This document shows positions 7,194 through 57,088 of a stretch of 64,000 nt of DNA, in pieces. Below the pieces are notes generated by a model that had not been told where the DNA came from, searched no databases, and saw nothing but the letters and a program-made list of their open reading frames with translations. Origin of the DNA: Rosistilla carotiformis (GTDB lineage: Bacteria > Planctomycetota > Planctomycetia > Pirellulales > Pirellulaceae); assembly GCF_007753095.1 (NCBI RefSeq), contig NZ_CP036348.1:3968001-4032000 (forward strand), in the 5' to 3' direction. Within the stretch, counting starts at the first letter, position 1, and each line of letters opens with the position of its first letter. The position numbers were made by a program, and so were the translations under genes.

Positions 7194-7481
7194 ATGAACG
7201 TGAATCGATTGTTCGCCTTCCTCTTCATCGTTTCGGCTTTTCAAGTGTCGCTGAACGCGGAATCACCAACCGGCTGGAGTCCCGTGATTCTGCCAACGGG
7301 AGCGTATCGCGCCCAAATCCAAGCGATGCCGATTCACGAACGCCCGGGGCGACCGTTTCACATCTATGGGAACACGATCCGATTGATTCACCAATCCAAT
7401 CGTTCGCAACCGCCGACTCGACCTTTACGGCAGATCGTTTTCGGAACTCCCGTTTGGATCGGACCGCCTGCCCTCCGTTAA
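7194..7481 (+). CDS. Small secreted protein of unknown function
   Basis: A 95-residue protein with a convincing signal peptide (MNVNRLFAFLFIVSAFQVSLNAE). The mature part is short, basic and rich in Pro and Arg, with the segment RPFHIYGNTIRLIHQSNR. Small secreted proteins with a YGNTxR-type segment are, to my recollection, common in Pirellulales, but I cannot name a family. An AAAGG sequence lies about ten bases before the ATG. The gene stands alone, convergent with the SDR at 7765-8784, with 283 bases between the stops. A weak inverted repeat (7492-7497 with 7517-7522) just past the stop could help termination. Confidence 0.5.
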   Translation: MNVNRLFAFLFIVSAFQVSLNAESPTGWSPVILPTGAYRAQIQAMPIHERPGRPFHIYGNTIRLIHQSNRSQPPTRPLRQIVFGTPVWIGPPALR

Positions 7482-7764
7482 ATCCCTCCCCCTCGCCAGC
7501 CAGCCTTTGATGTATTGGCGAGCGTGTAAAGCGAGGACGGTCTAAATTTGCGAGATGTTCTCGCGCAGGACGAGTGCTTAGTGCATGGAATGACGCGATG
7601 CACTCACAGCCCGATCGAGATAAGTCTTTCCAGGCCATCGCTTGGAATCGCCGCTGGTTGAACCAGCCGCCCGAGACGTTTCGGTTCGCGAATCGGATCG
7701 CAGAGCGTCGCCATTGTCTGGCCGACACAGGGCTGCACATTTGGATTCGGTAGAAACCAACAAC

Positions 7765-8784
7765 TTAAAACTGGTTGTTCATCGCCGCGGCTCGTTGCGT
7801 GAGTGTTGTAAGAACCGATGGAGACCAACTGGACTGGCTCGCGTGCCCCTTGGCAGAATCCCGGCCAATGCCTCCCATTTTGGGAAGAACCGACGCGGCC
7901 AACGCGAGTATTTCTTGCGTCAGTTCGGGGCAAAGGCTTTGCAGTGCGATCGTCATATTCCATGGGCTGTGGATGAAGACCTCACCAAGTCCTTGCTGGC
8001 ATGCGACCAGAATTTGAGAAGCTGCCGCTTCCGCATCCATCGACATCAACGGCAGTGAATCGCCAATGCTGAACCAAGCGTATTCTTCACGATGCTGGCC
8101 TTTGAAGTTCGCGTTCCGTGGACTCCCGGTTCGCATCAAGCCGGGACATGCGGTGGTAACAAAAATGTTCTCCTGTTTCAGTTCCGCCCGCATTCCATTA
8201 GAAAGCCCTACGAGTGCGAACTTGCTGGCAGCGTAAGGAAGCATATGCGGAACGGCTCGCTTGCCACCGAGTGAAGCGATGTTGACGATCCTTCCCCAGC
8301 CAGCGGCTCGCATGTGCGGGAGCACCGCCTTGGACGTGTGCAGCGCCCCCCAACAATTGGTGTTCATCGAGTCGGCGAAGTCATCGAACTCCATCGCTTC
8401 GAGGGGGCCCACCGTGATGATCCCGGCGACGTTGATCAGGACATCGACGCCTCCCAACCGATCGACCACTTGGTCGATAAAGCGAGTTACCTGTTCCGGC
8501 TTGCGGACATCGCACGCCACTGACATCACCTGGGCGCCGCGATCGCGCAATTGCTCAGCCGCAACGGCAAGATCCTCTTCACCTCGAGCGGTGATCGCGA
8601 TCCGAGCACCTTGGTCGGCCAGCTGTCGCGCGATGACCAGACCAAGCCCACGGGAACCGCCGGTGATAACGACCCGTTTGTCTTTCCAGTCGAAGATTCG
8701 CTTACGGCGAGCGACAGCTCGGGTGATTCTTAATCCCGTATATCCGAGGGCAGCGGAGAGCGCGAGTTTGGAAAAGGTATTCAT
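7765..8784 (-). CDS. Short-chain dehydrogenase/reductase with N-terminal hydrophobic segment
   Basis: A 339-residue SDR. I place the start at the ATG at 8784 (MNTFSKLALSAALGYTGL), because the 18 codons upstream look non-coding. After a hydrophobic N-terminus that may anchor it in the membrane comes the Rossmann motif TGGSRGLG (about residue 40), NVAG, the catalytic Ser in VNIASLGG and the YAASK motif. Together these are the classical SDR cofactor site and catalytic Ser-Tyr-Lys. The length exceeds a minimal SDR by about 80 residues, from the leader and a C-terminal extension. Substrate cannot be told. It lies 141 bases downstream of the TolC-like gene on the same strand and may be read with the export operon. 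Confidence 0.9.
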   Translation of the reverse strand: MNTFSKLALSAALGYTGLRITRAVARRKRIFDWKDKRVVITGGSRGLGLVIARQLADQGARIAITARGEEDLAVAAEQLRDRGAQVMSVACDVRKPEQVTRFIDQVVDRLGGVDVLINVAGIITVGPLEAMEFDDFADSMNTNCWGALHTSKAVLPHMRAAGWGRIVNIASLGGKRAVPHMLPYAASKFALVGLSNGMRAELKQENIFVTTACPGLMRTGSPRNANFKGQHREEYAWFSIGDSLPLMSMDAEAAASQILVACQQGLGEVFIHSPWNMTIALQSLCPELTQEILALAASVLPKMGGIGRDSAKGHASQSSWSPSVLTTLTQRAAAMNNQF

Positions 8785-8925
8785 CGAGTTCGTGTTGGGG
8801 ATGTGTGGTGTGAAGGGTTCACATCCACCACCGAGCAATCGACGTGCCGAACACAGAACTCACGCTAGTAACGCCGCAACGAGGATGCCGCAGTCAACGC
8901 ATCGGGCGTTAAAGCCGTGTGTCGG

Positions 8926-10734
8926 TCATTGAGGCCAGTCGACCGCCATCGCCGCGTCGTAATCCGCTCTGGCGATGTAGTATTCCAGCTTGGCATCGAT
9001 CTCGTAGATCGCCGCTTCGATCGCGTATTGTTCACGCAATACCACGGCCAACAGGTCGCTTTCGCCCAGGTTGAATTTACGACGTTCGACGTCGGCAATG
9101 TAGTCCGACAACCGCGTCGCCTCTTCCGCCTGTTGAAGTCGTTTGTACGCAGCGTCCAAAGCGATGAAGGCCGATTCCAATTCGGCGCGCACCTTGTCGG
9201 ACGTGTACTGCCGTTTGGCAGCGATCTGCGTCAGCTTGGCGCGTGCCGCTTGCATTTTTCCAGCCGCTTTGCGCCGCTGGGCCGGCGCCTCCACATAAAG
9301 TCCCGCCTCCAATTCGAAGGGAGATTTATCTCGTTTGCTACTAGTCGGCGCACCAACATCTTGCGATCCGACCAATTGGGCATCGATCGCCGGCAGCCCC
9401 TCATTGCGTCCCTCCGACAAATCGACCCTCGCGCGACGGGATTGCAAATCCAAAGCGGCGAATTCCGGCCTCTCAAGCAACGCTTGAGCGACGTCGGTTT
9501 CGAACCGTTCACGTACGACGGCAGTGGGGGAAGGAAACGAGACTTCGATCGCCTCGTCAACAACAATCGGTATTCCCTCGGGCGTCCGATAGAACATCGA
9601 CAACTTGACGGCGGTCTGCTGTTGCTTGCGTTGCAGGTCAATCAGCTTGGCTTCTCGCTGCGCGATCGCTCGCAGATTGTCTTGCAGCACCGGCGGATCG
9701 ATATCGCCCAACTCGACCTTCCGCTGCAATTGTTGGTTCCGCGTCGTCGCGAGTTCGAGGGCTTGTTCGCCGATTTTGTATTGCTGCGTCGCAGCGACCC
9801 AGCTCCAGTACGTGACGCTGCCGTCCCGGACAAATTGAATCAGCTGGGATCGGATCTCGGGGAGTGCCAATTGGCGATCGTAGGTGGCACGCCACAATTC
9901 CGCCCGACGCGCGTCGATCTGTCGATCCTTCAGCAACGGCATGTTAAAGCCCGCCTTAAACTCACCGCCGTCGTTCGTCTGACGTTCCAGATACCAAGGT
10001 TGAAATTCACCGCGACCGATGCGGTACCCACCAAACACTTCGCCACCGCGATAAACGGGCGTCTCAAACCCAGCGCCCTGCCGATAGGTTTCGTAATAAC
10101 CCAGCGGCCCGTTCTCGCTTGATGCCTTTAGTTTTGTATCGAAAGCGCCCCACGCTGCAACCTGCTTGCCCGCGGCGATTTGGTAGTCCTGATAGGCGAC
10201 TTCCAACAGCGGGAACGTCGCGTGGATCGACGTAACGACTTCGCTAAGCGACACCGCGACGGCCGAATCGGGAGCGGGAGTCGGCAACGGCTCGGCAAGC
10301 GTCTCGTCCACTTTGTCGGATGTCGGCCGATCCGTTTCCACGTCGCTGCCGTCGGATGTATCAAACGTCAAACGAAAAGGGAGCGTTTCATGAAGATTTG
10401 CTCCGCGAGATTCCGCACCACCGTTGGCGATGGTCTCTTCGTCGGACGCACGAGCGATGGGTTCGCCGACAGATTGCCGCGGGTGCGGTTGGGGCGTGTG
10501 AGATGCCAACGAAAACGATGTCGAATCGTCATCGGGGGTTTCTGCGGGCGATTTGGAACTGGCAAGCGTCGCCGTGTCGGTGGAATGGGCGAGCGTCGGA
10601 ACCGCCGCGAAATTGCTGGATGCATTCGAATCGTCCTTGCCAGCTTTGCAGCCAACAAACACGAATACAATCGACGTGGCACACACCAATGTGATCAACG
10701 AGGCTCGTTGTCGATGGGTATCTTGACGAGTCAC
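8926..10734 (-). CDS. TolC-family outer-membrane lipoprotein
   Basis: Outer-membrane channel component of a tripartite exporter. Shortly after a possible GTG start at 10734 there is a hydrophobic stretch ending in VFVGC, a plausible lipoprotein cleavage site, followed by a low-complexity linker and then the long helical repeats typical of TolC/OEP proteins (for example ALELATTRNQQLQRKVELGD and a matching helical pair near the C-terminus, LQQAEEATRLSDYIADVERR). The open frame goes on to an ATG at 10857, but that extra segment has no signal-peptide character; the true start is uncertain. It is the third gene of the ABC-HlyD-TolC set, 176 bases after the HlyD-like gene. The coupling suggests a dedicated secretion or efflux system. 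Confidence 0.82.
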   Translation of the reverse strand: MTRQDTHRQRASLITLVCATSIVFVFVGCKAGKDDSNASSNFAAVPTLAHSTDTATLASSKSPAETPDDDSTSFSLASHTPQPHPRQSVGEPIARASDEETIANGGAESRGANLHETLPFRLTFDTSDGSDVETDRPTSDKVDETLAEPLPTPAPDSAVAVSLSEVVTSIHATFPLLEVAYQDYQIAAGKQVAAWGAFDTKLKASSENGPLGYYETYRQGAGFETPVYRGGEVFGGYRIGRGEFQPWYLERQTNDGGEFKAGFNMPLLKDRQIDARRAELWRATYDRQLALPEIRSQLIQFVRDGSVTYWSWVAATQQYKIGEQALELATTRNQQLQRKVELGDIDPPVLQDNLRAIAQREAKLIDLQRKQQQTAVKLSMFYRTPEGIPIVVDEAIEVSFPSPTAVVRERFETDVAQALLERPEFAALDLQSRRARVDLSEGRNEGLPAIDAQLVGSQDVGAPTSSKRDKSPFELEAGLYVEAPAQRRKAAGKMQAARAKLTQIAAKRQYTSDKVRAELESAFIALDAAYKRLQQAEEATRLSDYIADVERRKFNLGESDLLAVVLREQYAIEAAIYEIDAKLEYYIARADYDAAMAVDWPQ

Positions 10735-46804: not shown

Positions 46805-47356
46805 AAAGAGACTTCTTTCATGAAGTAGGATGGAGGGATTGGAACTACGAGGCCGCATTTCCGCGGAGGACTTGTCCGAAGAGGATACCGCCCCAGCTAT
46901 CATTTGCCAATCCAAGCACTGCGTCCGCCCTGCTTCGAAACCCATGACAATAGGCCCGCGGAACAAGCCGCACGAACGGCGGCGTGATGGGAAACGCCAT
47001 TGCGGCACGCCAGGTGTTGGATGATCTTCCCTACGTTTGCCCTTCGCGCTGGCCGCACCCTCTAAATACCTGATGCGAGTCGGAGTTGTCGTTCCGGTAA
47101 ACCGATCGCGCGCCGCCTCGGACAACTCCTTCCAGCAGATCTTGCCTCATAATCGAAGGCAACGCCAAGCGACAACTCGGGCGTTTCGCGCTCGAGGGCT
47201 GGTGACAGATCGAAGCATGCGTTCCCGCGCTGCGGCACCACCATGCTTTCCAAGTTCCCAAATTCAAACCGTCGACCGGCCACCGAGTTCGTCGTCGGAT
47301 ACTGCTGCCCGCAAGTCGCCGCCGCAATTACCCGAGTGCGCGTTGTAGAATCCGCG
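46805..47356. other. Gap without a recognisable gene
   Basis: A 552-base stretch between the RidA and TPR genes. Short open frames exist on both strands (for example 47062-47283 minus) but none has a ribosome-binding site or recognisable motif, and two overlapping minus frames share protein-like pieces, which might reflect a decayed gene. No repeat or hairpin was found. Confidence 0.3.
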
Positions 47357-47896
47357 CTACCGTGCCGAAGCGGCCGTGTCGAGCGCCGCCAAGAGAGTTT
47401 CGGTTTGCGCGTCCGGCGGTGCAGACTGCATCGCTTGTTGCAAATGCGCCCTGGCGGAGTCGACGTTTCCGGCGTCGATCTCTAAGACCGCGAGGTTGTG
47501 ATGGGCTGCCGATTCACCGAGTGCCTCGGAAAAATGTCGCAGCGCCGCCGCGGAGTCCCCCTTGCGATAATGGATCATCGCAAGCGTTGATTGAAGGCGG
47601 CGGTTACCGGTGTCGTTTTGCAGTCCGCGTGTCGCTTCGGCGATCGCTTGATCGAAACGCCCCGATTCCATCAGCGTCCAGGCAAAGTTGTTGGACAGCT
47701 CGCTGTCGTCGGGCGAGCGCTGGACGATCCGATTATAGCGCTGAATCGCTGCATCGTGGTTGCCAAGATCGGCGTACAGCGGAGCCAATTCGGCATCGAG
47801 CGGTTCGCCGATCGGATCGAGCTGCTCGACGTGTTCGTACAGTTTGACCGCTTCTGCGGCGTGTCCTTTGGAGGCGACCGTTTTCGCGGTCTGCAT
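47357..47896 (-). CDS. TPR-repeat protein, possibly 5'-truncated
   Basis: A 179-residue protein made of tandem tetratricopeptide repeats: GHAAEAVKLYEHVEQLDP, GNHDAAIQRYNRIVQRSP, GRFDQAIAEATRGLQNDT, GDSAAALRHFSEALGES and GNVDSARAHLQQAMQSAPPD. No signal peptide or catalytic domain is present. An in-frame stop lies just upstream of the ATG, while a second frame from about 47976 reads MESKIEAAYRLQSDGRWDEA, itself TPR-like. The gene may therefore have lost its N-terminal part through a frameshift. TPR arrays mediate protein contacts; the partner is unknown. It sits at the edge of the accessory stretch that includes the large NTPase gene. Confidence 0.65.
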   Translation of the reverse strand: MQTAKTVASKGHAAEAVKLYEHVEQLDPIGEPLDAELAPLYADLGNHDAAIQRYNRIVQRSPDDSELSNNFAWTLMESGRFDQAIAEATRGLQNDTGNRRLQSTLAMIHYRKGDSAAALRHFSEALGESAAHHNLAVLEIDAGNVDSARAHLQQAMQSAPPDAQTETLLAALDTAASAR

Positions 47897-48684
47897 GCAG
47901 AGCGAGCGTTCGCCGCTGATGCTTCATCCCATCGGCCATCGCTCTGCAACCGGTAAGCCGCTTCGATTTTGCTTTCCATTGCCCAGCATACCATCCTTGG
48001 AGCAACGTTTTCTGACGCCGCGTCAGAATTGTATTGGAGGCAATAAGAACGCACTATGAGATGGCGGAAAGCTCGCGCATTACCCCGCCTGCCCGCGACG
48101 AGTGTTTAATCAACCACTGGGCCGTTTCTGGTCGATTGGGCAGCGTAACGTCTTGCCCTCGCGAGCAAGTCAGCCATAACTGATCTCGCCCACTTCTGAC
48201 GGAAACGAGTCACTATCGTTTTCTGACCCAAATTTCACCGACTGCGACATCCGATTTAGATCGTCAAAATCAAGACAGCTTTCTGGATGATCCTACATGC
48301 TGCGGCCGAAGAATCTGCTCAACGACTCTAATCTCTCTCTGGCTGCTCCGGTGTCGCGCACTGGAGCAAGCTATTGGCGCGCCGCTCAGGAACAGCTCCC
48401 TTCAACGACAGGGAGTCAAATCTGTGCCGCTTTTCTTTAATCAATTACATAGTCATGCGATAGGCGAAGCGGATTGCGAAGCAATATTGGCAAATCTTCA
48501 CATACGCAAATTGAAATGCGGCAAGTTCGCCGTGGACGGTCCAATCAAAAATACATATCTGGCGTCATCCAGCATCAGTTCAGTAGCGGTCTGTGGCCGG
48601 CAATCGCTACAATCCCCTGTATCGCTAAGGTTACAACCTCACGTTGTGGCTTGCAGTATCGTGCCTTGGAAAGGAATTGCCGGA
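47897..48684. other. Region upstream of the large NTPase gene
   Basis: About 790 bases. The first 80 hold the TPR-like piece in another frame. The rest shows no gene I can support. The long open frame of the NTPase gene extends back to 48424, but residues before the ATG at 48685 lack protein character. I see no integrase, tRNA or direct repeat that would mark an insertion boundary. Confidence 0.35.
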
Positions 48685-51600
48685 ATGTCGAACGTAGGCG
48701 GATCAGCGAACATCAACGGAATCCTATACCAAGTCCTTGGAACACTTGACAGGGCTGTGAATCCTTCAATCACATATGCGAAATGTACTGGCGACGATAT
48801 TACCCAAGCTCAACTGATCATCGAGCCTGCTGGTGGCGGTGGCGATCTGGAAATAGTCGATGAGTCTTGCCGAGTCGTGCAACAGTGGAAAGCGAAGGCT
48901 CGTGGAGGAACTTGGGCTCTAAAGAAAATCATCGAAGACGTGCTGACTGATTTATATATGGCCGTTCGAGTGGACGATCTCGAATCAAACACCAAATACC
49001 AGTTTGTCACGGAAGGCAAGATCGGTGACTGGCGTGACACGATGGAATTCTTTAAGTCACTGCCGTTGCATCCCTCGGAAGGAATCGCTGCTAGCCTTAC
49101 GGACATTACGAAACGTCACAAAATCGGGAAATACACGTACAACGACGATGAACTCTTCAACTACATAGTTGCCAAAGTTTCGAAACGCGAACCCGCAACG
49201 AGTGAGCCTGAAGGCGTCGTAAAAAGCAAGCTGTTTCATTTGCTGGCACGTTTTGAGATCGTAGAATCGCAGAACCATGAACTTTTGGCGGTTCGGATAA
49301 ATGCATTCCTAGGTCATCACGTCGATTACTCTGAAGATGTGGATGCGAAACGTCGTCAGCTCTGTGGGCTCCTTCTCGAAATCGCATCCCAGGGCATGCA
49401 ATCTGTTTCGGCCGAGTCACTCTTGCGGCGGTGTAGTATTCCAGTGCACTCGTTCCTAAACTGGCATCGACTGCTTGCGAGGATGAAGCAGCGACTAGTC
49501 GAGCAACTAAGCAAGGAACAGTATGACAAAACTTACGATCCTCGGGACAAGCTTAATTTGGAGCGAACGATAACAGCTATCCGAGGCGAGAGCGGGCAAG
49601 GGAAAACTTGGCGTCTAGCAGGGCTGGCGACCGATGTGGCCGCCTCTAACTGCCTCGTCATATGGGTCCCAAGCGCTCGCGAACCTGCGGATGTCTCCGC
49701 GTATGTTGCGAAGGAAATCTGGAACTATGGTCTCGAACGAGACGCTGTGCTAACACTCGAAAGTGTTGCAAGCCGACGCGCGCAGTCAACTCCTGACATT
49801 GAGACTCCTTGGGCACTCATTTGCGTTGACGATGTCAGATCGAATGAAGATGTAAAGAAGCTTCTTCAGCTTGATTGGGCCCGCTGGGGCGTCAGGCTAG
49901 CCTTCAACACAAGCCCGATCATTGGTCGGCAAATTGCAATCGAGAACAACCAACTGTGTGTTTCAGCCAACGACTTCGACCACAGTGAACTACGCGAATA
50001 CCTTAAACGAAGAGGTGTGTCATGGGGCACAATTCCGAATGACGTGCGTCAACTCATTCGTCGGCCGATCTTTGCAAAGATTTATGCTGACGTCGTTGAC
50101 GAACAGTCGACATTCAGGCCTCGTAATGAATATGACTTGATGGAGGCAGCCTGGCGTCGGCTAATCAACAACGTCGAAGTCGGGTTGATTCGCAAGATTG
50201 CAGGGACGATCAAAGATGATTCAAACGCATATCCCTGGCTAGCGGAAACGCTACTGGACACAGGCTTTAGCCCTGAAATGATTGAGAGACTCGTAAACCG
50301 TGGCTTTTTACACGATCTCGGTAATGGCCGCATCGCAATCTGGCATCAACGTTTCCTGTGTTGGGCATTAGCTAAACACCTTGTAGCGCTGTTTGAATCG
50401 GGCGTCCTAACGCTCGACGGCTTAATCGAGGCTACGGTGAAATGTCATAGAGTGCCTGATTCCCGACGCATACAACTGGGCTACGTTCCGATGGACGTGC
50501 TTTGGTTACTACTCGATCCAGAGGTTCCGAACAAGGAACGAAAGTTTCTCTGGAAACTGGTTTCTGCATTAGAAGCATCTAATGGCTTCGGACACGACGA
50601 CATGTCGTTGTATTCGCATCTACTGGCAAGCCTTGGGACTCGCGTAATTCCACTTCTGTTGGATCGAGTTCGTTCGATTGAGGACGCAGAACGTAGTGGA
50701 ATTATTAACAGGGTAGCACACGCGCTAAGGATAATCGGTCGTGACGACGGCGAACGCATGTCAGTCGTGGCGCGGGAATGTGTTGCGGATGGAAATGAAG
50801 CGTTGAAGGAACTCGGATTGCAGCTGGCCGTTTTTTTCCCAAAATTAGTGGATATTGATCGAGTCTGGGAGGAGTATCGGCGTTGCATCGTGGACGATAA
50901 GGAAAGTCGTAGGCATTTTATTCGTCGAGACAGGGCGTCAACGGCATTTGCTTCCGTTGCCGCGAGAAATCTAGCTTGGGTTGAACAGCAACTGCAAGTT
51001 GGTGATGCAAGCGACCCTTGCTTTACGTCGCTGGTCTTCACATTGTCGAACATGCCGGGTAGCGCTCCCAAAAAAATTTGGGAAGAGGCAAAGGACCATC
51101 TTATTGCCGCAATTGCGTCCGAGAATCGTCGGTGCTTGGTGTCCTGTATCGTCTGCTTTGGTGACGTTGACGAATATGGACGGCTCGAGGAGTGGGCTTC
51201 ATCGGAACACGAATTTGTTGGAGCGGTATCCGCACGGGGACTTGCATATCGTGATCCGCCCCGAGCAATCCAGCTCTTACCAAATATTTCGGCGAAGCGA
51301 CTCTGGGGCGTGGCCGGTGCAATTGGTACCGCATTGTTTGTGTCGCACCCGCTCGCGACGTGTTCTGCCGTTGAATCGCTGGTTCGGAATGGAGACAATC
51401 CAGAGCATTATTTTGACTTGGTTGCAAATAACGGCGACCGCCTCACTCCGACTCTGGTTGAGGAACTGCTTGATTGGCTAAACAATGTCTTGGAACGACA
51501 TCTATCTACGGACGATGATTCCACACAGCCACACCCAAGGTATCCACTGGGTTTGATCGAAGGACTGCACGGCGAAACGGTCCTAGCCGGATTAAGGTCT

Positions 51601-53241
51601 AGGCAAGGCAGCAAGTTGGAAGGCAATCTAGTAACGTTCGCTACATCTCGGATCAAAAAGATTTCAACTTACGTTGATCACGAATTTGGGCACGCGATAG
51701 AATTATTGAAGCGTATTGCGGGCGATGGATTTACTTCACTAACAAACGAACTCATACGAGCGGAACATCAGCAACTGAGGATGGAAGGCTGCGAACTTGC
51801 GGTAATGCGTCCGAGCGCAGAAACGCGACGCCTGCTTGCAGATGCTGCGGTCAGCGATGAGTTATGGGAGCCCGATTCTTCTAGACTCAATTTGGCCCAG
51901 ATGCGAGCGATCGATAGCCTTTCTGCCCTGGGGGAAAACGCGGGAGTCGTCAACGGAATTCTCAAGTGGGGATTAAGCGTTTCACCTGATATCGGTGCTC
52001 TACGTGCAGACCTGCCCCAAATGAATGATGATGAACTTGCGCCAGCAATCGCGTTGCTAAAATCCCCAGACAACAAAGAATTCCCGCACGCAATCCTAGC
52101 TATCGGACTGAGCGGCAGGCAAGACCTTCGTCGCGAGGTGGAAAATGTGCTGTTGGCGTGTGCTTACGATTCCGAGTTAGCGAATTATTGCCTGATCGCG
52201 CTTCAAGACCTGCCAAGTAACTGCATCCGAATTTTCGATCGTCTTGTGGCACAGTACCAGTCAGGTCACCACAAATTTGCTGTACTCAAGGCTTTGTCGG
52301 GATGCGAAACGGCCAAGGAAAACTACCTAAGGCTACTGCCGACGGAAGGACAACTAGACGACATGGACCAACGTGTCGTTGAGTTCCTAGCTGCTGACGA
52401 AGCAACGCGACCGCTAGTGCGATCACACGTTGAACAACTTTTGGAAACTGGTGGCCGTCACATGTGCAACACAGTCGCTCTTCTTGATCCGGAGCTAGAG
52501 CCCGATCGGAAATTATTGTGGGAAACGACGCTACAGAGTGATAATGGAATGCACTTTGGTGGATCGCGAGCGAGAGCCTTGCGATCACTTGGAAAAATTT
52601 CTCCAGATGCCGCATTTGAAATTGGTTTGGAAACACTAACGAGTGATCGACGTGATCGCGATACTGTTCCCCAGGTACTGCTGGAACTCGATCCAGAGAG
52701 AGCCTTGGCTAACCTTTTGCGTGTCGCATGCGAATCAAACGACAAGTTCGTATGCTGTTCGGTTGCACGTGCGTTAAGAGGTTCAGGAGAAGTTTCCGGC
52801 CTCAGGCGGGCAACTGATGATTTTCTGAATCATGATAGCTGGAGTGTTAGGCGTGCCGCAGCGTTCATGGCTGGGTATTTTCCTAGCGGTGTCGCTGACA
52901 CTGAACTGCGTCGAGTCGCTTTCAATGACCCCAAGTGGGGAGTTTGTGCAGTAGCACAGTCTGCGTTGCGAATGCGTCAGCGTGAAGCCGAAGCGTGCAA
53001 ACTCGTTACGACACTAAGCTCCTTGAAATTATTTCAAGTTTGGGGAACGCTTGATTGTGTTGTTCGCTTAGTTGATCCAGGTGTCGCTACCGCGAAGGGT
53101 GATCCCATCGGGTTGGTGAAAGCGGTAGGTGCGCTGCCGCCTATAGTGGGAGAATACGTTTCAAAAGCTTTGAAGAAGAGAACGAAGCAGCACGAAGACG
53201 ATCTGAACTCGCTTCACGGAAAATGGAAAGATCAAGACTGA
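48685..53241 (+). CDS. Nuclease / STAND-like NTPase / HEAT-like repeat protein, probable antiphage (Avs-like)
   Basis: A 1518-residue protein. The ATG at 48685 has AAGGAA eight bases upstream. Residues 1-100 look like a PD-(D/E)xK nuclease of the Cap4/DUF4297 or Mrr kind: GGSANINGILYQVLGTLDRA, then IIEPAGGGGDLEI with Glu47 and Asp54, then QQWKAK with Gln67 and Lys69. A P-loop NTPase follows: Walker A GESGQGKT at 301-308, Walker B ALICVDD at 377-383, LAFNTSP as a sensor-like strand. The remaining 900 or so residues are helical repeats with HEAT-like units, for example DSWSVRRAAAFMAGYFPSG. Nuclease, STAND ATPase and repeat sensor in this order is the plan of Avs proteins. GC is visibly lower than in neighbours, which suggests transfer. 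Confidence 0.8.
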   Translation: MSNVGGSANINGILYQVLGTLDRAVNPSITYAKCTGDDITQAQLIIEPAGGGGDLEIVDESCRVVQQWKAKARGGTWALKKIIEDVLTDLYMAVRVDDLESNTKYQFVTEGKIGDWRDTMEFFKSLPLHPSEGIAASLTDITKRHKIGKYTYNDDELFNYIVAKVSKREPATSEPEGVVKSKLFHLLARFEIVESQNHELLAVRINAFLGHHVDYSEDVDAKRRQLCGLLLEIASQGMQSVSAESLLRRCSIPVHSFLNWHRLLARMKQRLVEQLSKEQYDKTYDPRDKLNLERTITAIRGESGQGKTWRLAGLATDVAASNCLVIWVPSAREPADVSAYVAKEIWNYGLERDAVLTLESVASRRAQSTPDIETPWALICVDDVRSNEDVKKLLQLDWARWGVRLAFNTSPIIGRQIAIENNQLCVSANDFDHSELREYLKRRGVSWGTIPNDVRQLIRRPIFAKIYADVVDEQSTFRPRNEYDLMEAAWRRLINNVEVGLIRKIAGTIKDDSNAYPWLAETLLDTGFSPEMIERLVNRGFLHDLGNGRIAIWHQRFLCWALAKHLVALFESGVLTLDGLIEATVKCHRVPDSRRIQLGYVPMDVLWLLLDPEVPNKERKFLWKLVSALEASNGFGHDDMSLYSHLLASLGTRVIPLLLDRVRSIEDAERSGIINRVAHALRIIGRDDGERMSVVARECVADGNEALKELGLQLAVFFPKLVDIDRVWEEYRRCIVDDKESRRHFIRRDRASTAFASVAARNLAWVEQQLQVGDASDPCFTSLVFTLSNMPGSAPKKIWEEAKDHLIAAIASENRRCLVSCIVCFGDVDEYGRLEEWASSEHEFVGAVSARGLAYRDPPRAIQLLPNISAKRLWGVAGAIGTALFVSHPLATCSAVESLVRNGDNPEHYFDLVANNGDRLTPTLVEELLDWLNNVLERHLSTDDDSTQPHPRYPLGLIEGLHGETVLAGLRSRQGSKLEGNLVTFATSRIKKISTYVDHEFGHAIELLKRIAGDGFTSLTNELIRAEHQQLRMEGCELAVMRPSAETRRLLADAAVSDELWEPDSSRLNLAQMRAIDSLSALGENAGVVNGILKWGLSVSPDIGALRADLPQMNDDELAPAIALLKSPDNKEFPHAILAIGLSGRQDLRREVENVLLACAYDSELANYCLIALQDLPSNCIRIFDRLVAQYQSGHHKFAVLKALSGCETAKENYLRLLPTEGQLDDMDQRVVEFLAADEATRPLVRSHVEQLLETGGRHMCNTVALLDPELEPDRKLLWETTLQSDNGMHFGGSRARALRSLGKISPDAAFEIGLETLTSDRRDRDTVPQVLLELDPERALANLLRVACESNDKFVCCSVARALRGSGEVSGLRRATDDFLNHDSWSVRRAAAFMAGYFPSGVADTELRRVAFNDPKWGVCAVAQSALRMRQREAEACKLVTTLSSLKLFQVWGTLDCVVRLVDPGVATAKGDPIGLVKAVGALPPIVGEYVSKALKKRTKQHEDDLNSLHGKWKDQD

Positions 53242-54504
53242 AATGCATTGAAGCCGACTGCGGATGTCGAGACGAAACCGGTCTCCGTACCCTTGATCCT
53301 GGCTCGGTTGATGACTGCTACGGCGGGCACTGAAACTGCCCCGGTGGTCGAGACGCCGTGGCTGTTTTCGGGGTTTCCTGGCCTGGCACTGATTTCATCG
53401 ATTGGAGCATCTCACGGTATCTCCAAAGTGCCAGTGGAAGGGCGGGCCGGGCGCGATAACCCTGTTGCGTGGCCACTCGCTATTACGAGAGCCGGCATAC
53501 GGCAGGCCTCATTCAGGTTTGACATCGTGTCATAACGGTTCGCCCGGCAACAACGCACTATGGGACGGCTCCGTGCAGGTTTGCTATCACACTGTGCACG
53601 AAGGACACTGCATCGAGCAACAGGCTACGCTGGAAGTTAGGTGGACGCCCCGCTCTCATCGGCGTTGTCATTTCGCTTGCGTTGCAGGCTGCGTCCCACC
53701 GTGAGTAGGACTTCTCTAATCAGCGGAGGGCAGGTTGTTCTAAATTGTTGTTAATTCGGCTGTGTCGGGATCACTTTCTGCAAGCCTGTTCCCATAGGTG
53801 TTCCCACCACTACCGGTTTCGTTAGCATTTCCTAGCGAATCCGAACCGAGTTCGACTCCCCTACGGAGTCCTCTTCCAATCAGGTCTTGGGGCCGCGCGA
53901 TCCAGGCGTCTTGAATATCAGCTGGTTCAAAATAGAATTGCCTCAGTTCCCCAGTCGTTGGTTCGGCGAGGTCGCTCGCTCGAATCGATTGGAACGCTTC
54001 GACATGTTTGTTTCTCCCTTTGTTGGAAAAACGAGTTGAGAAATTGTAGGTGCCGCGTGACCAGTTCTTCACGCAGCAGCGACCGGAAAAACTGCGTGGA
54101 GCCGAATCTCGCTGGACAACCTTGCACCGCAACCGACCGCAGTCGGCTGGCGAGGCTCGATCATCGACGAACTCTCGGGAGTGTCTCGAGTTGATGAGGA
54201 ATCAATGCCCTCCTGCAAATGCCCAATCACGCTCTGCGTAAGCATTGCGATATCGGGCTCGCAGCAAATTTCAAAAGCGCCCCACCGCGCAGACGAGACC
54301 GATCGGGTTTGGTCGGACCGTATGACCGAACACGCCGCGCGCGGCGGGACATAGTGTCATGGCACCCATGCAAAGTCGTGGTGCGCGCAAGGCGAGCCCA
54401 GTTAATCCAATTGGGATAGAATCATCGTGGGATCGGCTTCCAAGCAGACACGCTCGCGCGAACCGAGGTAGACACCTCAAGTCGCCCGAAGACGATGGGA
54501 GCGA
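53242..54504. other. Accessory non-coding stretch after the NTPase gene
   Basis: About 1260 bases with no confident gene. Short plus-strand frames at 53248-53535 and 53402-53704 have chance-like composition. A minus-strand frame at 53740-54132 has a protein-like C-terminal part (AEPTTGELRQFYFEPADIQ) but a non-protein-like start and no recognised motif; it may be a remnant. The low gene density beside a lower-GC gene fits a decayed accessory region. Confidence 0.35.
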
Positions 54505-54918
54505 TCAGGCCGCAGCAGGCGGTCCACGGGGTTGGGCAATTGCGATCGAAGCGTCGATCGGCAATGGGGTCGCAAGTTCGTAGGCTGGCTCGCATGCATA
54601 TTCAGGTGCAAGCAGCTGCAGATCGAGCGAAACAGGACCACAGGAGTTGGCTAGCGACTGGCAGATCACGCAGGTATCGGAATCGTGATCTTGAGCCGGT
54701 GCCGATGAAGGAGAGTCGGCGGAGTTGTCCGTCGATTCGTGGGCGACAACGTGATGATCGCAGCCGTGCGAACAAACCGAACGGGCTTGAACAATCGCCG
54801 CGTCCACGACCTTGCAATCGCCGTCGCATGTGGCCACGTGCATCCATGCCGGTGTGTGCCCAAAGGCAATCACGCAGCAGAGCATGCTCGATAAGAAAGG
54901 CCGGACCGACGAATACAT
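54505..54918 (-). CDS. Small secreted Cys/His-rich protein, DUF2946-like
   Basis: A 137-residue protein starting at the ATG at 54918 (MYSSVRPFLSSMLCCVIAFG), a signal peptide or membrane anchor. The mature part is rich in Cys, His and Asp: CDGDCK, CSHGCDHHVVAHE and DSDTCVICQSLA, and it ends in PRGPPAAA. The CxxC-Q segment and the terminal RGPP resemble the DUF2946 family, small proteins often near metal transport genes. It is related to the divergent protein at 55267-55770, which shares HDSDxCxxCQS and the RGPP end. Metal binding is probable from composition; the actual role is unknown. Confidence 0.7.
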   Translation of the reverse strand: MYSSVRPFLSSMLCCVIAFGHTPAWMHVATCDGDCKVVDAAIVQARSVCSHGCDHHVVAHESTDNSADSPSSAPAQDHDSDTCVICQSLANSCGPVSLDLQLLAPEYACEPAYELATPLPIDASIAIAQPRGPPAAA

Positions 54919-55266
54919 CGTGGACGTTTCGTTTTCTAGAGTGAGGTGAGTTGCAAAATGGTCCGACCAAAGACTGTTGCGTTTCCTACGATGAACCAAC
55001 AATACGGGTTCGTCAAGTCGACGAAAAAGTTTTTGGGACGATAGCGGTGGCAAGCAACCGACGTGAACGCTTCGGATCCGCGACTCGCCACCGCAGGCTC
55101 GCCGGAAAACATCAAGGTCAAATTGGATGTCGACGGCTTCACCTGCGCACGTTGGAAGACTTCACCAAGTGTGGGGACGGAGACTCGTATTGCGATGCAA
55201 AAATTTCGATGAAGCTGTCATGAAACCGTCGCGGATCCGAACCGTGTTGCCTGACAAGCCGTATGT
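54919..55266. other. Intergenic region between the divergent Cys/His-rich genes
   Basis: A 348-base gap that must contain the two divergent promoters. I see no palindrome and no clear -35/-10 pair. A minus-strand frame at 54936-55142 has no supporting features. Confidence 0.35.
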
Positions 55267-55770
55267 TTGATAAACAATCACAACATCCTTGGTCGGACCG
55301 TTGAACAACATTTGCGCGACGTCGTGTCTGGCGTCCGCTGTTTCTTAATCATCGATGGTTTACCCACCTTGGCTTCTCGGCGGATCCTGACGACTTACGC
55401 TCTGCTCGCGGCGCTGCTGCTGAGCAATGTCGCCGGTTGGTTGCACGTCGGCTGCTGTCATCCATCGGATCTTGCCTCCGCAGATCCCGCCGCCGCGGCA
55501 ACGCATGCTTGCGGTTGCCAGCATCATTGCCATTCCGGTCCAACCGACGAAGAATCCGATCCAGATTCCGATGCGACCCCCGAACACGATTCGGATCGCT
55601 GCAGTGTCTGCCAAAGCTTCTTCGCATCGCGTTTTGCCGCGATCGCAAACGCCGATACGATCGTTTGGACGCCGCTGGCAACCGAACGTCTTCGTTTTCG
55701 CCGCGACGTGGTGTCGATCGAATCGCTTTCTTTGAACGGACTTTCTGTCCGAGGACCTCCGAGCGCGTGA
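55267..55770 (+). CDS. Small secreted Cys/His-rich protein, DUF2946-like (paralogue)
   Basis: A 167-residue open frame from a TTG at 55267; a second TTG at 55369 gives a neater signal peptide (MASRRILTTYALLAALLLSN), so the start is uncertain and the true protein may be about 133 residues. The mature part has GCCHPSD, HACGCQHHCHSGPTDE, an acidic run and HDSDRCSVCQSFFAS, and ends SVRGPPSA. The shared HDSDxCxxCQS block and RGPP end tie it to the protein at 54505-54918 on the opposite strand. The composition suggests a metal-binding exported protein. It precedes the DUF58 operon by about 100 bases, in the same direction. Confidence 0.68.
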   Translation: MINNHNILGRTVEQHLRDVVSGVRCFLIIDGLPTLASRRILTTYALLAALLLSNVAGWLHVGCCHPSDLASADPAAAATHACGCQHHCHSGPTDEESDPDSDATPEHDSDRCSVCQSFFASRFAAIANADTIVWTPLATERLRFRRDVVSIESLSLNGLSVRGPPSA

Positions 55771-55873
55771 ACGTGCGCAGCCATTGTTTTGGCTGATGTG
55801 CGAATGCTCGTGTCGGCTTATTCCAAGCTGACAATCCGCTCTGAATGATCCTCGTACCGAAGGTGCGTACGTC

Positions 55874-57088
55874 ATGTCGTTTGACCTTGTTGTGTCCCAA
55901 GAACCCAGTCGGCTGTCGCGATTGCTGACGACCGACTTCTGTCCTTGGGCGAATCGATATCTGTATTGGTTGAAGGAACCGGTGGGCTGGTTTGCGCTCG
56001 CCACCGCGATCAGCGTGATCGTTGGAATCTACCTCGCTCCCATCGGATGGACTCTCGCCGCGGCGCTCGCTGCAGTGATTGTTGTCGGGATGGCCTGGCC
56101 AGCGGTTGCCGTCCGCGCGGTCGAAAGCTCGCTGAAGCCGAGCCAATCGCAAGTCCATGAAGGGGATCCCTGCGAACTGCAACTGGCCGTACGGAACCGG
56201 TTGCCGATTCCTGTCTGGGGCTTAGCGGTCGAAGGCTTCTTGGATCGGCGATGCGACAGCGACGCCGAAGCGGCAGTTCCCACCGTCGCCCTCGCGTTTG
56301 TTCGCGGCCTGGCGATCTCGACCTATCGGTTTTCGATCCGCCCAGAACTGCGAGGCCGCTATCCCAACGAAGACGCCCTGCTGACATGTTCCTTTCCCTT
56401 CGGGATTTGGACCGCCAAGCGGAAGCTGAAAAACGTATCGCCCGTCACCGTCTGGCCCAAGGTCTATCCGGTTGCCGGAAGCACGGCGATGACGGGACGC
56501 CGCGCTGCCGAATCGGGGGACGGCAACCGCAGTGGTCGCAGCGGTGATTTCCTGGGTGTTCGCGAATACCGTCACGGCGATAGCGCACGACAGGTCAATT
56601 GGGTCGCGACGGCGCGGTCGGGAGATCTTGTTGTCACCGAACGCAGCGGTCCGCAGTGCCCAAGTGTCGACGTGATCGTCGACGTCGGGCGATCGGCACG
56701 CGAGCCATTGGCCGATCGGATTCGCGTCGCTGCCAGTCTACTTGCGAACCTGCACCAATCGGCCGTCCCGTTGCGCGTTCACATCGGCAAGAATTCGGTT
56801 CAGGTGCGGCGCGGCTGGGATGGGTTCGTGCAAATTATGGACGCGTTGGCGGAGGTCCCCGCCGAAGGAGAGCGCGACGCTCCCATGCATTATCCATCGC
56901 GGAACCGAGCGACGATTGCGATCGCTTCGAGTCGCGATGCGGAGATTACCGTTTGTGTTTCCGATCCGGCGGTCAATCCCCGTTCCGCCGACGGTCACTC
57001 GCACCGCATGATTCATCGCGATCGCGGCTTGGCGAAGCAGTTGCTTTCGTTCTGGACGGAGGTGCGCGATGTCAACTTGGTCGCGTAG
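55874..57088 (+). CDS. DUF58-domain membrane protein
   Basis: A 404-residue protein. Two adjacent membrane helices near the N-terminus (ALATAISVIVGIYLAPIGW and AALAAVIVVGMAWPAVAV) precede a beta-rich domain and the DUF58 core, recognised by GDFLGVREYRHGDSARQVNW followed by a vWA-like segment starting VDVIVDVGRSAREPL. DUF58 proteins occur with MoxR ATPases and transglutaminase-like proteins, as here, and such sets are thought to act in envelope protein maturation or chaperoning. The end overlaps the next gene by 20 bases, so the operon is tightly coupled. Confidence 0.94.
   Translation: MSFDLVVSQEPSRLSRLLTTDFCPWANRYLYWLKEPVGWFALATAISVIVGIYLAPIGWTLAAALAAVIVVGMAWPAVAVRAVESSLKPSQSQVHEGDPCELQLAVRNRLPIPVWGLAVEGFLDRRCDSDAEAAVPTVALAFVRGLAISTYRFSIRPELRGRYPNEDALLTCSFPFGIWTAKRKLKNVSPVTVWPKVYPVAGSTAMTGRRAAESGDGNRSGRSGDFLGVREYRHGDSARQVNWVATARSGDLVVTERSGPQCPSVDVIVDVGRSAREPLADRIRVAASLLANLHQSAVPLRVHIGKNSVQVRRGWDGFVQIMDALAEVPAEGERDAPMHYPSRNRATIAIASSRDAEITVCVSDPAVNPRSADGHSHRMIHRDRGLAKQLLSFWTEVRDVNLVA

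Follow-up and report, generated by a model that had tools for sequence, protein, structure and literature searches.

What is a single gene for a protein of 1,518 residues, joining a nuclease-like head, a STAND-type NTPase and a very long array of HEAT-like repeats, likely to do for its host, and does it belong to any defense system already catalogued? The gene lies at 48685..53241 (+) of the window, by which we mean the whole 64,000-nucleotide stretch of DNA that was analyzed, and its frame is open throughout. There is an alternative in-frame start upstream (GTG 48424). We favor ATG 48685 because it fits the N-termini of most relatives, the majority of which start shortly before a GG-x-A-x-I-x-G-x-L-Y-Q block (M-x-x-x-GG-x-A-A-I-x-G-F-L-Y-Q). 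Scans for promoters and terminators gave no more signals than shuffled sequence. Our answer, drawn from sequence, structural models and analogy with described systems, and which we regard as highly probable, is that the gene encodes an Avs/NLR-like STAND sensor, probably an antiphage abortive-infection protein, from an uncatalogued family that associates HEAT sensors with exchangeable effectors.

The first part of the protein (residues 1-110; 48685..49014, +) is a putative nuclease core of the PD-(D/E)xK type. In the structural model this head has the elements H6-25, E43-46, E55-58, E63-69, H79-92 and E103-109, with low pLDDT at residues 1-7 and 27-40. The succession alpha-beta-beta-beta-alpha-beta is that of the PD-(D/E)xK core, and we read the head as such a core because the model has this order and E47, D54, Q67 and K69 lie within the first three strands or next to them. 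The initial annotation had named these four residues as nuclease-like. They are where it placed them, the fold that it expected around them appears in the predicted structure, and they are unchanged in all 27 nuclease-bearing sequences compared, the window's included, from four phyla (the union of 24 N-termini, A12, 24/24, and 23 longer rows, A10, 23/23). We predict that they form the catalytic set. The order of the motifs (E, D, QxK) and their position ahead of the rest of the protein are those of the Cap4/DUF4297 and LmuA nucleases. The PADLOC model of LmuA matches the heads of two relatives (E 3.5e-5 and 7.4e-4), whereas the Pfam family Cap4_nuclease has no match at E<=1 in the five nuclease heads of the family that were scanned. 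When the head was aligned with hhalign to three Cap4 and six LmuA proteins, the probabilities were 7.3% and 13.4%, respectively, with the motifs in register.

The nuclease core is followed by a mixed helical linker (residues 111-255; 49015..49449, +) and then by a STAND NTPase core (residues 256-450; 49450..50034, +). The initial annotation had put a Walker A motif at residues 301-308 and a Walker B motif at residues 377-383, and both are correctly placed. In the first, GESGQGKT (49585..49608, +), residues G301, G304, G306 and K307 are invariant in the 26 NTPase segments compared. In the second, ALICVDD (49813..49833, +), D382 is kept in 25 of the 26 and is replaced by E in the other, and position 383 has D in 19 of them. 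Next comes a helical and winged-helix-like region (residues 451-575; 50035..50409, +), where P461 and R556 are invariant (26/26) and the model shows helices and a beta hairpin (E542-544/E549-552). The model of residues 1-600 has a mean pLDDT of 83.9 and, when compared as a whole with the PDB by Foldseek, its first match is the terminase-bound Avs3 (8dgc_A; E 9.2e-13, query TM-score 0.43, 728 alignment columns), followed by NLRC4, a chain of a HerA-DUF assembly (9c1m_G), APAF-1, NOD2 and NLRP3. The AlphaFold model and the matches to Avs3, NLRC4, APAF-1 and NLRP3 agree on an NTPase with helical and winged-helix regions after it, which is the fold of STAND/NLR proteins. Sequence comparisons of the PDB gave no immune STAND protein, either at a useful E-value in a profile search (the best match was KaiC, 0.0073) or with phmmer, and a search of viral folds gave general AAA/STAND matches only. 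When four Avs2 proteins, retrieved by means of the PADLOC model, were compared with the family by hhalign, they aligned with it at 94.0% (E 1.4e-7) in columns 287-569 only. On this profile evidence we take the NTPase core to be homologous to that of Avs2; the comparison, which among Avs proteins covered Avs2 only, joins that core only.

The rest of the protein is a HEAT-repeat solenoid and our proposed sensor (residues 576-1500; 50410..53184, +). In the model of residues 540-1518, helix accounts for 73% and strand for 0.8%, and 51 helices span 7 residues or more. The solenoid is a helical array of about 930 residues and roughly 25 helix pairs, close to the 900 or so residues of repeats that had been announced. 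Its best matches in the PDB are HEAT proteins (SF3B1-containing complexes, Kap121, mTORC1 and CAND1). The Pfam family HEAT_2 scores 22.5 bits in the window protein, under the cut-off of 27.7, and passes the cut-off in five of the nine other family members scanned.

These results bear on two other explanations. The window protein could be an ordinary or degenerate gene with no immune role, its motifs being a chance reading. The Pfam matches of the window protein are indeed all sub-threshold (HEAT_2, AAA_22, nSTAND_NTPase5 and NACHT), but 1,518 codons have remained open, the catalytic and Walker residues are kept across four phyla and the predicted fold is confident, which makes this account very improbable. 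The second explanation is that the protein is a divergent member of the catalogued Avs2, Avs3 or Avs4, sensing terminase or portal, whose solenoid has drifted to a HEAT-like look. The nearest solved structure is that of Avs3 with terminase, and the NTPase-winged-helix core aligns with Avs2. Yet this alignment ends at residue 569 and leaves the C-terminus unaligned, and the model of the solenoid matches SF3B1, Kap121 and CAND1. Furthermore, in the PADLOC part of the DefenseFinder/PADLOC check proposed in the initial annotation no family matched the window protein at E<=10, NCBIfam gave no family for it either, and the sole Avs match among five relatives was to Avs2, in one of them, over 40 residues around Walker A (E 0.0014). 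We consider such an origin unlikely and have rejected membership of the catalogued Avs families. The initial suggestion of an Avs-like or new STAND defense protein is retained, given the fold, the conserved residues and the sporadic homologues, as the best reading, that of an uncatalogued STAND sensor, and dropped insofar as it implied one of these catalogued families.

In some relatives the head has been exchanged. A second copy in the same genome (L008, G000:C1:2309658-2313746) is 67% identical to the window protein over residues 256-1518 of the latter, which comprise the NTPase and the HEAT solenoid. Its nuclease is replaced by a head of about 100 residues with two hydrophobic windows (Kyte-Doolittle 1.83 at position 30 and 2.19 at position 68), and none of the 29 other proteins scanned has a comparable window in its first 300 residues. 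This paralog carries a predicted head of two transmembrane helices in place of the nuclease. Another relative (L039) has a DUF4062 head (67.8 bits against a cut-off of 24.7), and a third (L026, whose start codon is provisional) has a head without a Pfam match. Each of these proteins is sister to a nuclease-bearing copy in the tree, with high ultrafast bootstrap and SH-aLRT values (L008 with the window protein, 100/100; L039 with L043, 100/100; L026 with L011, 100/99). In blocks of 60 residues, the identity falls from 0.51 in the block from residue 271 to about 0.25 in that from residue 211 between the window protein and its paralog, and from 0.73 to about 0.25 over the same blocks between L043 and L039. 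These two pairs, the closest ones, show the drop in identity at the same point (about residue 250-270 in the window protein), and the linker travels with the nuclease head, its end marking the exchange junction. By sequence, three different heads have replaced the nuclease on a conserved NTPase-HEAT body, giving proteins in the order effector, switch and sensor with exchangeable effectors. The exchange among nuclease, transmembrane and DUF4062 types fits effectors that stop the cell, and favors the reading of the family as immune sensors.

Members of the family occur sparsely in Planctomycetota, Pseudomonadota, Acidobacteriota and Nitrospinota, some of them in Mesorhizobium and Sphingomonas. 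A search of 98 related genomes identified the gene in its own genome, at two places, and a fragment in G077, and in neither of the two congeners. This fragment (L009, G077:C49:12430-13101) is 33% identical, has one stop and sits where a contig ends, next to an ORF resembling a tyrosine recombinase. Among 392 genomes of the phylum, five pass E<=0.001, i.e., the genome of the window, G443, G126 and two marginal ones, the matches being near full-length in 2 of the 391 other genomes (G443 and G126). We rejected the marginal ones, G271 and G274 (E 9.0e-4 and 7.7e-4), as family members, since they have short matches to the P-loop or HEAT parts. The same holds for 28 weak matches (E 6.2e-9 to 9.9e-4) among 398 genomes of Pseudomonadota, a set in which G485 was placed because it bears the gene and which gave three matches at E<1e-100. 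A first scan of species genomes with the window protein alone gave nothing; when 84,980 of them were scanned with one peptide pattern from a five-row alignment, we found at least 28 loci, among which are two pairs of near-duplicates and the G126 record itself. Relatives were present in 2 of 72,556 plasmid records and in none of 50,697 phage records, the pattern scan of viral contigs gave no relative, and E. coli has no near match at the DNA level. The homologues, several of which lie beside defense genes, are sporadic and not the universally conserved housekeeping genes that would have told against an immune role. One relative (L042:5974-7119 and 7254-9035) is shortened to 381 residues, with a DDE-transposase-like ORF directly after it, and is apparently a broken copy. 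Our tree, built from 26 NTPase-HEAT bodies, leaves out four truncated rows (L024, L034, L035 and L042), L028, which is cut at its 5' end, and L032 and L038 as near-duplicates. It places the Nitrospinota row within those of Pseudomonadota and scatters the planctomycete ones, with weak support for some inner branches, a pattern that fits horizontal transfer.

Do the relatives reside among defense genes, as expected from the initial annotation? We searched with PADLOC 16 hand-picked neighbors from 11 loci and found strong matches (E<1e-50) at 7 of the 11, which gives no rate since the neighbors were picked by hand. These include a type IIG system (L018), PglZ, BrxL and a PifA-like P-loop protein (L019), the methylase and the specificity subunit of a type I restriction-modification system (L020), PDC-M54A and PDC-M54B (L022), PDC-S06 (L030), Dsr1 (L033) and PD-Lambda-4_A (L042). 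The matches were weak at L023 (5.6e-16), L043 (4e-12) and L029 (7.6e-9), and there were none for the neighbors chosen at L031. Large candidate defense proteins of the PDC-M54A type adjoin two unrelated family members (L022:14627-21248 and L023:15509-20635). Another relative, on a Rhizobium plasmid (L014:5601-11741), comes after what looks by eye like an SOS cassette with imuA-imuB-like and DNA polymerase IV-like genes. We considered whether the gene could be a BREX accessory, and rejected this: BREX genes were found at only one of the inspected loci (L019), and Cap4, DUF4297 and NACHT do not appear in the available portion of the text of a BREX survey (PMC12839542). In an unselected comparison at E<=1e-10, the neighbors at a set of 11 loci (124 of 125, L014:2341-5754 having been dropped) matched 234 PADLOC models and 114 control proteins from 20 stretches of the same records matched 43, proteins of fewer than 120 residues being dropped from both. 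The models are redundant and the controls also hold defense genes (a type III methylase, HerA and a reverse transcriptase); the comparison points to an enrichment of defense genes near the relatives without measuring its size.

The surroundings of the window gene differ from this picture. Its 25 neighbors, counted together with those of its paralog, match five PADLOC models at generic-looking E-values (3.6e-33 to 7.8e-11), none of them clearly defense by context. Judging from these genes, the two copies lie outside any recognizable defense island, and the expected proximity to defense genes holds for the 7 of 11 relatives but not for the window and paralog sites. One could then suppose that the STAND protein regulates programmed cell death or a different kind of conflict (e.g., anti-plasmid, anti-gene-transfer-agent or kin recognition) and is not antiphage. 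Bacterial STAND/NLR-like proteins do control other events, such as LypB and the release of gene-transfer agents in the available part of PMC13236601, and two relatives are on plasmids. However, antiphage genes stand beside several relatives, and the exchange of nuclease, transmembrane and DUF4062 heads is in line with effectors that stop the cell. We find a role of this other sort unlikely and keep the antiphage reading.

The site of the window gene was compared with the congeners. The left flank (47104..47913) is common to the congener G002 at 94.6% identity, and the DNA from there to 53850 is not. At the right edge of the replaced segment lies a 154-bp stretch (53850..54003) that matches pilus-region DNA of G002 at 90.3% identity, and the positions 53995-56757 are again common to it (95.3%). 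Between these flanks, G002 has about 10.9 kb (L056 811-11672, reverse strand) and the window 5.9 kb. The genes of the G002 insert include one for a CpaF pilus ATPase (E 2.3e-115 against a solved CpaF) and others that look by eye like Tad/Flp pilus genes. CpaF is also present in the other congener, G001, where the right flank was located and the left one did not appear within the 32 kb examined. The window gene occupies the site of the pilus locus of at least one congener, since the flanks common to G002 surround its CpaF-bearing insert, and it stands beside a 154-bp remnant. The genome of the window seems to have lost a Tad/Flp-like pilus locus at this site.

The composition of the gene is also atypical. 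Its G+C content is 50.8%, whereas the 38 other ORF calls in the window average 57.9% (sd 2.3); at third positions it is 49.1% against 66.8% (sd 4.6), lower than in any of the 38. Hand counts had given 46% for the gene and 60% for its neighbors: the direction was right and the gap is smaller. Given its absence from both congeners searched, its low G+C and the pilus genes at its site in one of them, the gene looks accessory and was apparently transferred. A 21-nt direct repeat, 86% identical, flanks it (48045-48065 and 53549-53569) and may be due to chance. We did not retain the repeats as ends of a mobile unit, since short repeats in two copies frequently arise by chance and each flank occurs only once in the genome. 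Close by, a short ORF (53402-53704, +) ends in LWDGSVQ, which we take to resemble the C-terminus of planctomycete DUF1559 proteins, and could be what is left of a gene at the insertion site. Further downstream, two small Cys/His-rich proteins encoded in divergent orientation (54508-55053, -, and 55267-55767, +) are kept as a pair in both congeners; each starts with a hydrophobic stretch, and their C-termini resemble each other in ending with C-x-x-C-QS.

How could such a protein work? At rest, the solenoid of about 930 residues would keep the NTPase inactive. A phage protein, or a change in the host caused by the phage, would bind the solenoid, and the NTPase might then exchange nucleotide and oligomerize. 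This would bring together the N-terminal PD-(D/E)xK domains, which would cut phage and host DNA and stop the infection. We infer DNA cutting, oligomerization, the phage trigger and the protection of the host from the anatomy of the protein and from what the available parts of the reports on Avs (PMC12931631) and bNACHT (PMC12169576) describe.

A more specific formulation, on which we would place about even weight, is that the family is a separate lineage of Avs/NLR-like sensors, absent from PADLOC 2.0, NCBIfam and Pfam, with a giant importin-like HEAT sensor and a nuclease head that has been replaced, at a fixed junction (about residue 250-270), by membrane-inserting, TIR-like NADase and fourth-type heads. 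The two copies of this host would then have related sensors and different outputs, DNA cutting and membrane damage, and one class of infection signal may feed two different means of arresting the cell. The sister pairs formed by the window protein with L008 and by L043 with L039 are useful material to separate the part that sets the trigger from the part that sets the outcome, because they differ only in the head. More generally, the family would add a thinly spread group to the bacterial NLR-like sensors, with a sensor architecture unlike that of the Avs proteins compared.

How does the family relate to the systems already described? Full-text searching gave no description of a nuclease-STAND-HEAT family; subscription journals were mostly outside its scope and a printed description may exist elsewhere. 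According to the available part of PMC13092281, DefensePredictor led to 13 validated systems with PD-(D/E)XK domains and 7 with P-loop NTPases. Avs2 and Avs3 share with the window protein a nuclease head, a central STAND NTPase with a winged helix and a long C-terminal repeat sensor. They differ in that the HEAT solenoid does not align with the C-terminus of Avs2 and in that heads are exchanged within the window family. As far as the text available of PMC12931631 goes, Avs1-4 kill by cutting phage and host DNA upon recognizing terminase, portal or Ksap1. The bNACHT proteins (e.g., bNACHT25/32) are also described with a PD-(D/E)xK head, a STAND switch and a C-terminal sensor, and the D48A change in bNACHT25 abolishes defense; its C-terminus is, however, NCH1 and not a HEAT solenoid (PMC12169576, in part), and the Pfam NACHT score of the window protein is sub-threshold (12.1 bits against 26.7). 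The Cap4-type DUF4297 nucleases, to which the head was compared, require dimerization (available text of PMC11291478). Swarozyc has the DUF4062 domain, described in the accessible part of PMC13174449 as a TIR-like NADase in antiphage defense; in the window family this head type occurs in one relative only (L039), where it is fused to the STAND-HEAT body.

Finally, the initial annotation had seen in the HEAT-like repeats a possible new class of sensor. The repeats are indeed HEAT-like, but a HEAT-repeat sensor of phages is not new in itself: the available portion of PMC11263360 has DSR2 binding phage proteins through its HEAT domain and its C-terminal domain, a likeness to the HEAT sensor proposed here. 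DSR2 differs in having a SIR2 head, no STAND switch as there described and six repeats, against roughly 25 helix pairs in the window protein. The family would extend the HEAT-based sensing of phage proteins, known from DSR2, to STAND proteins.
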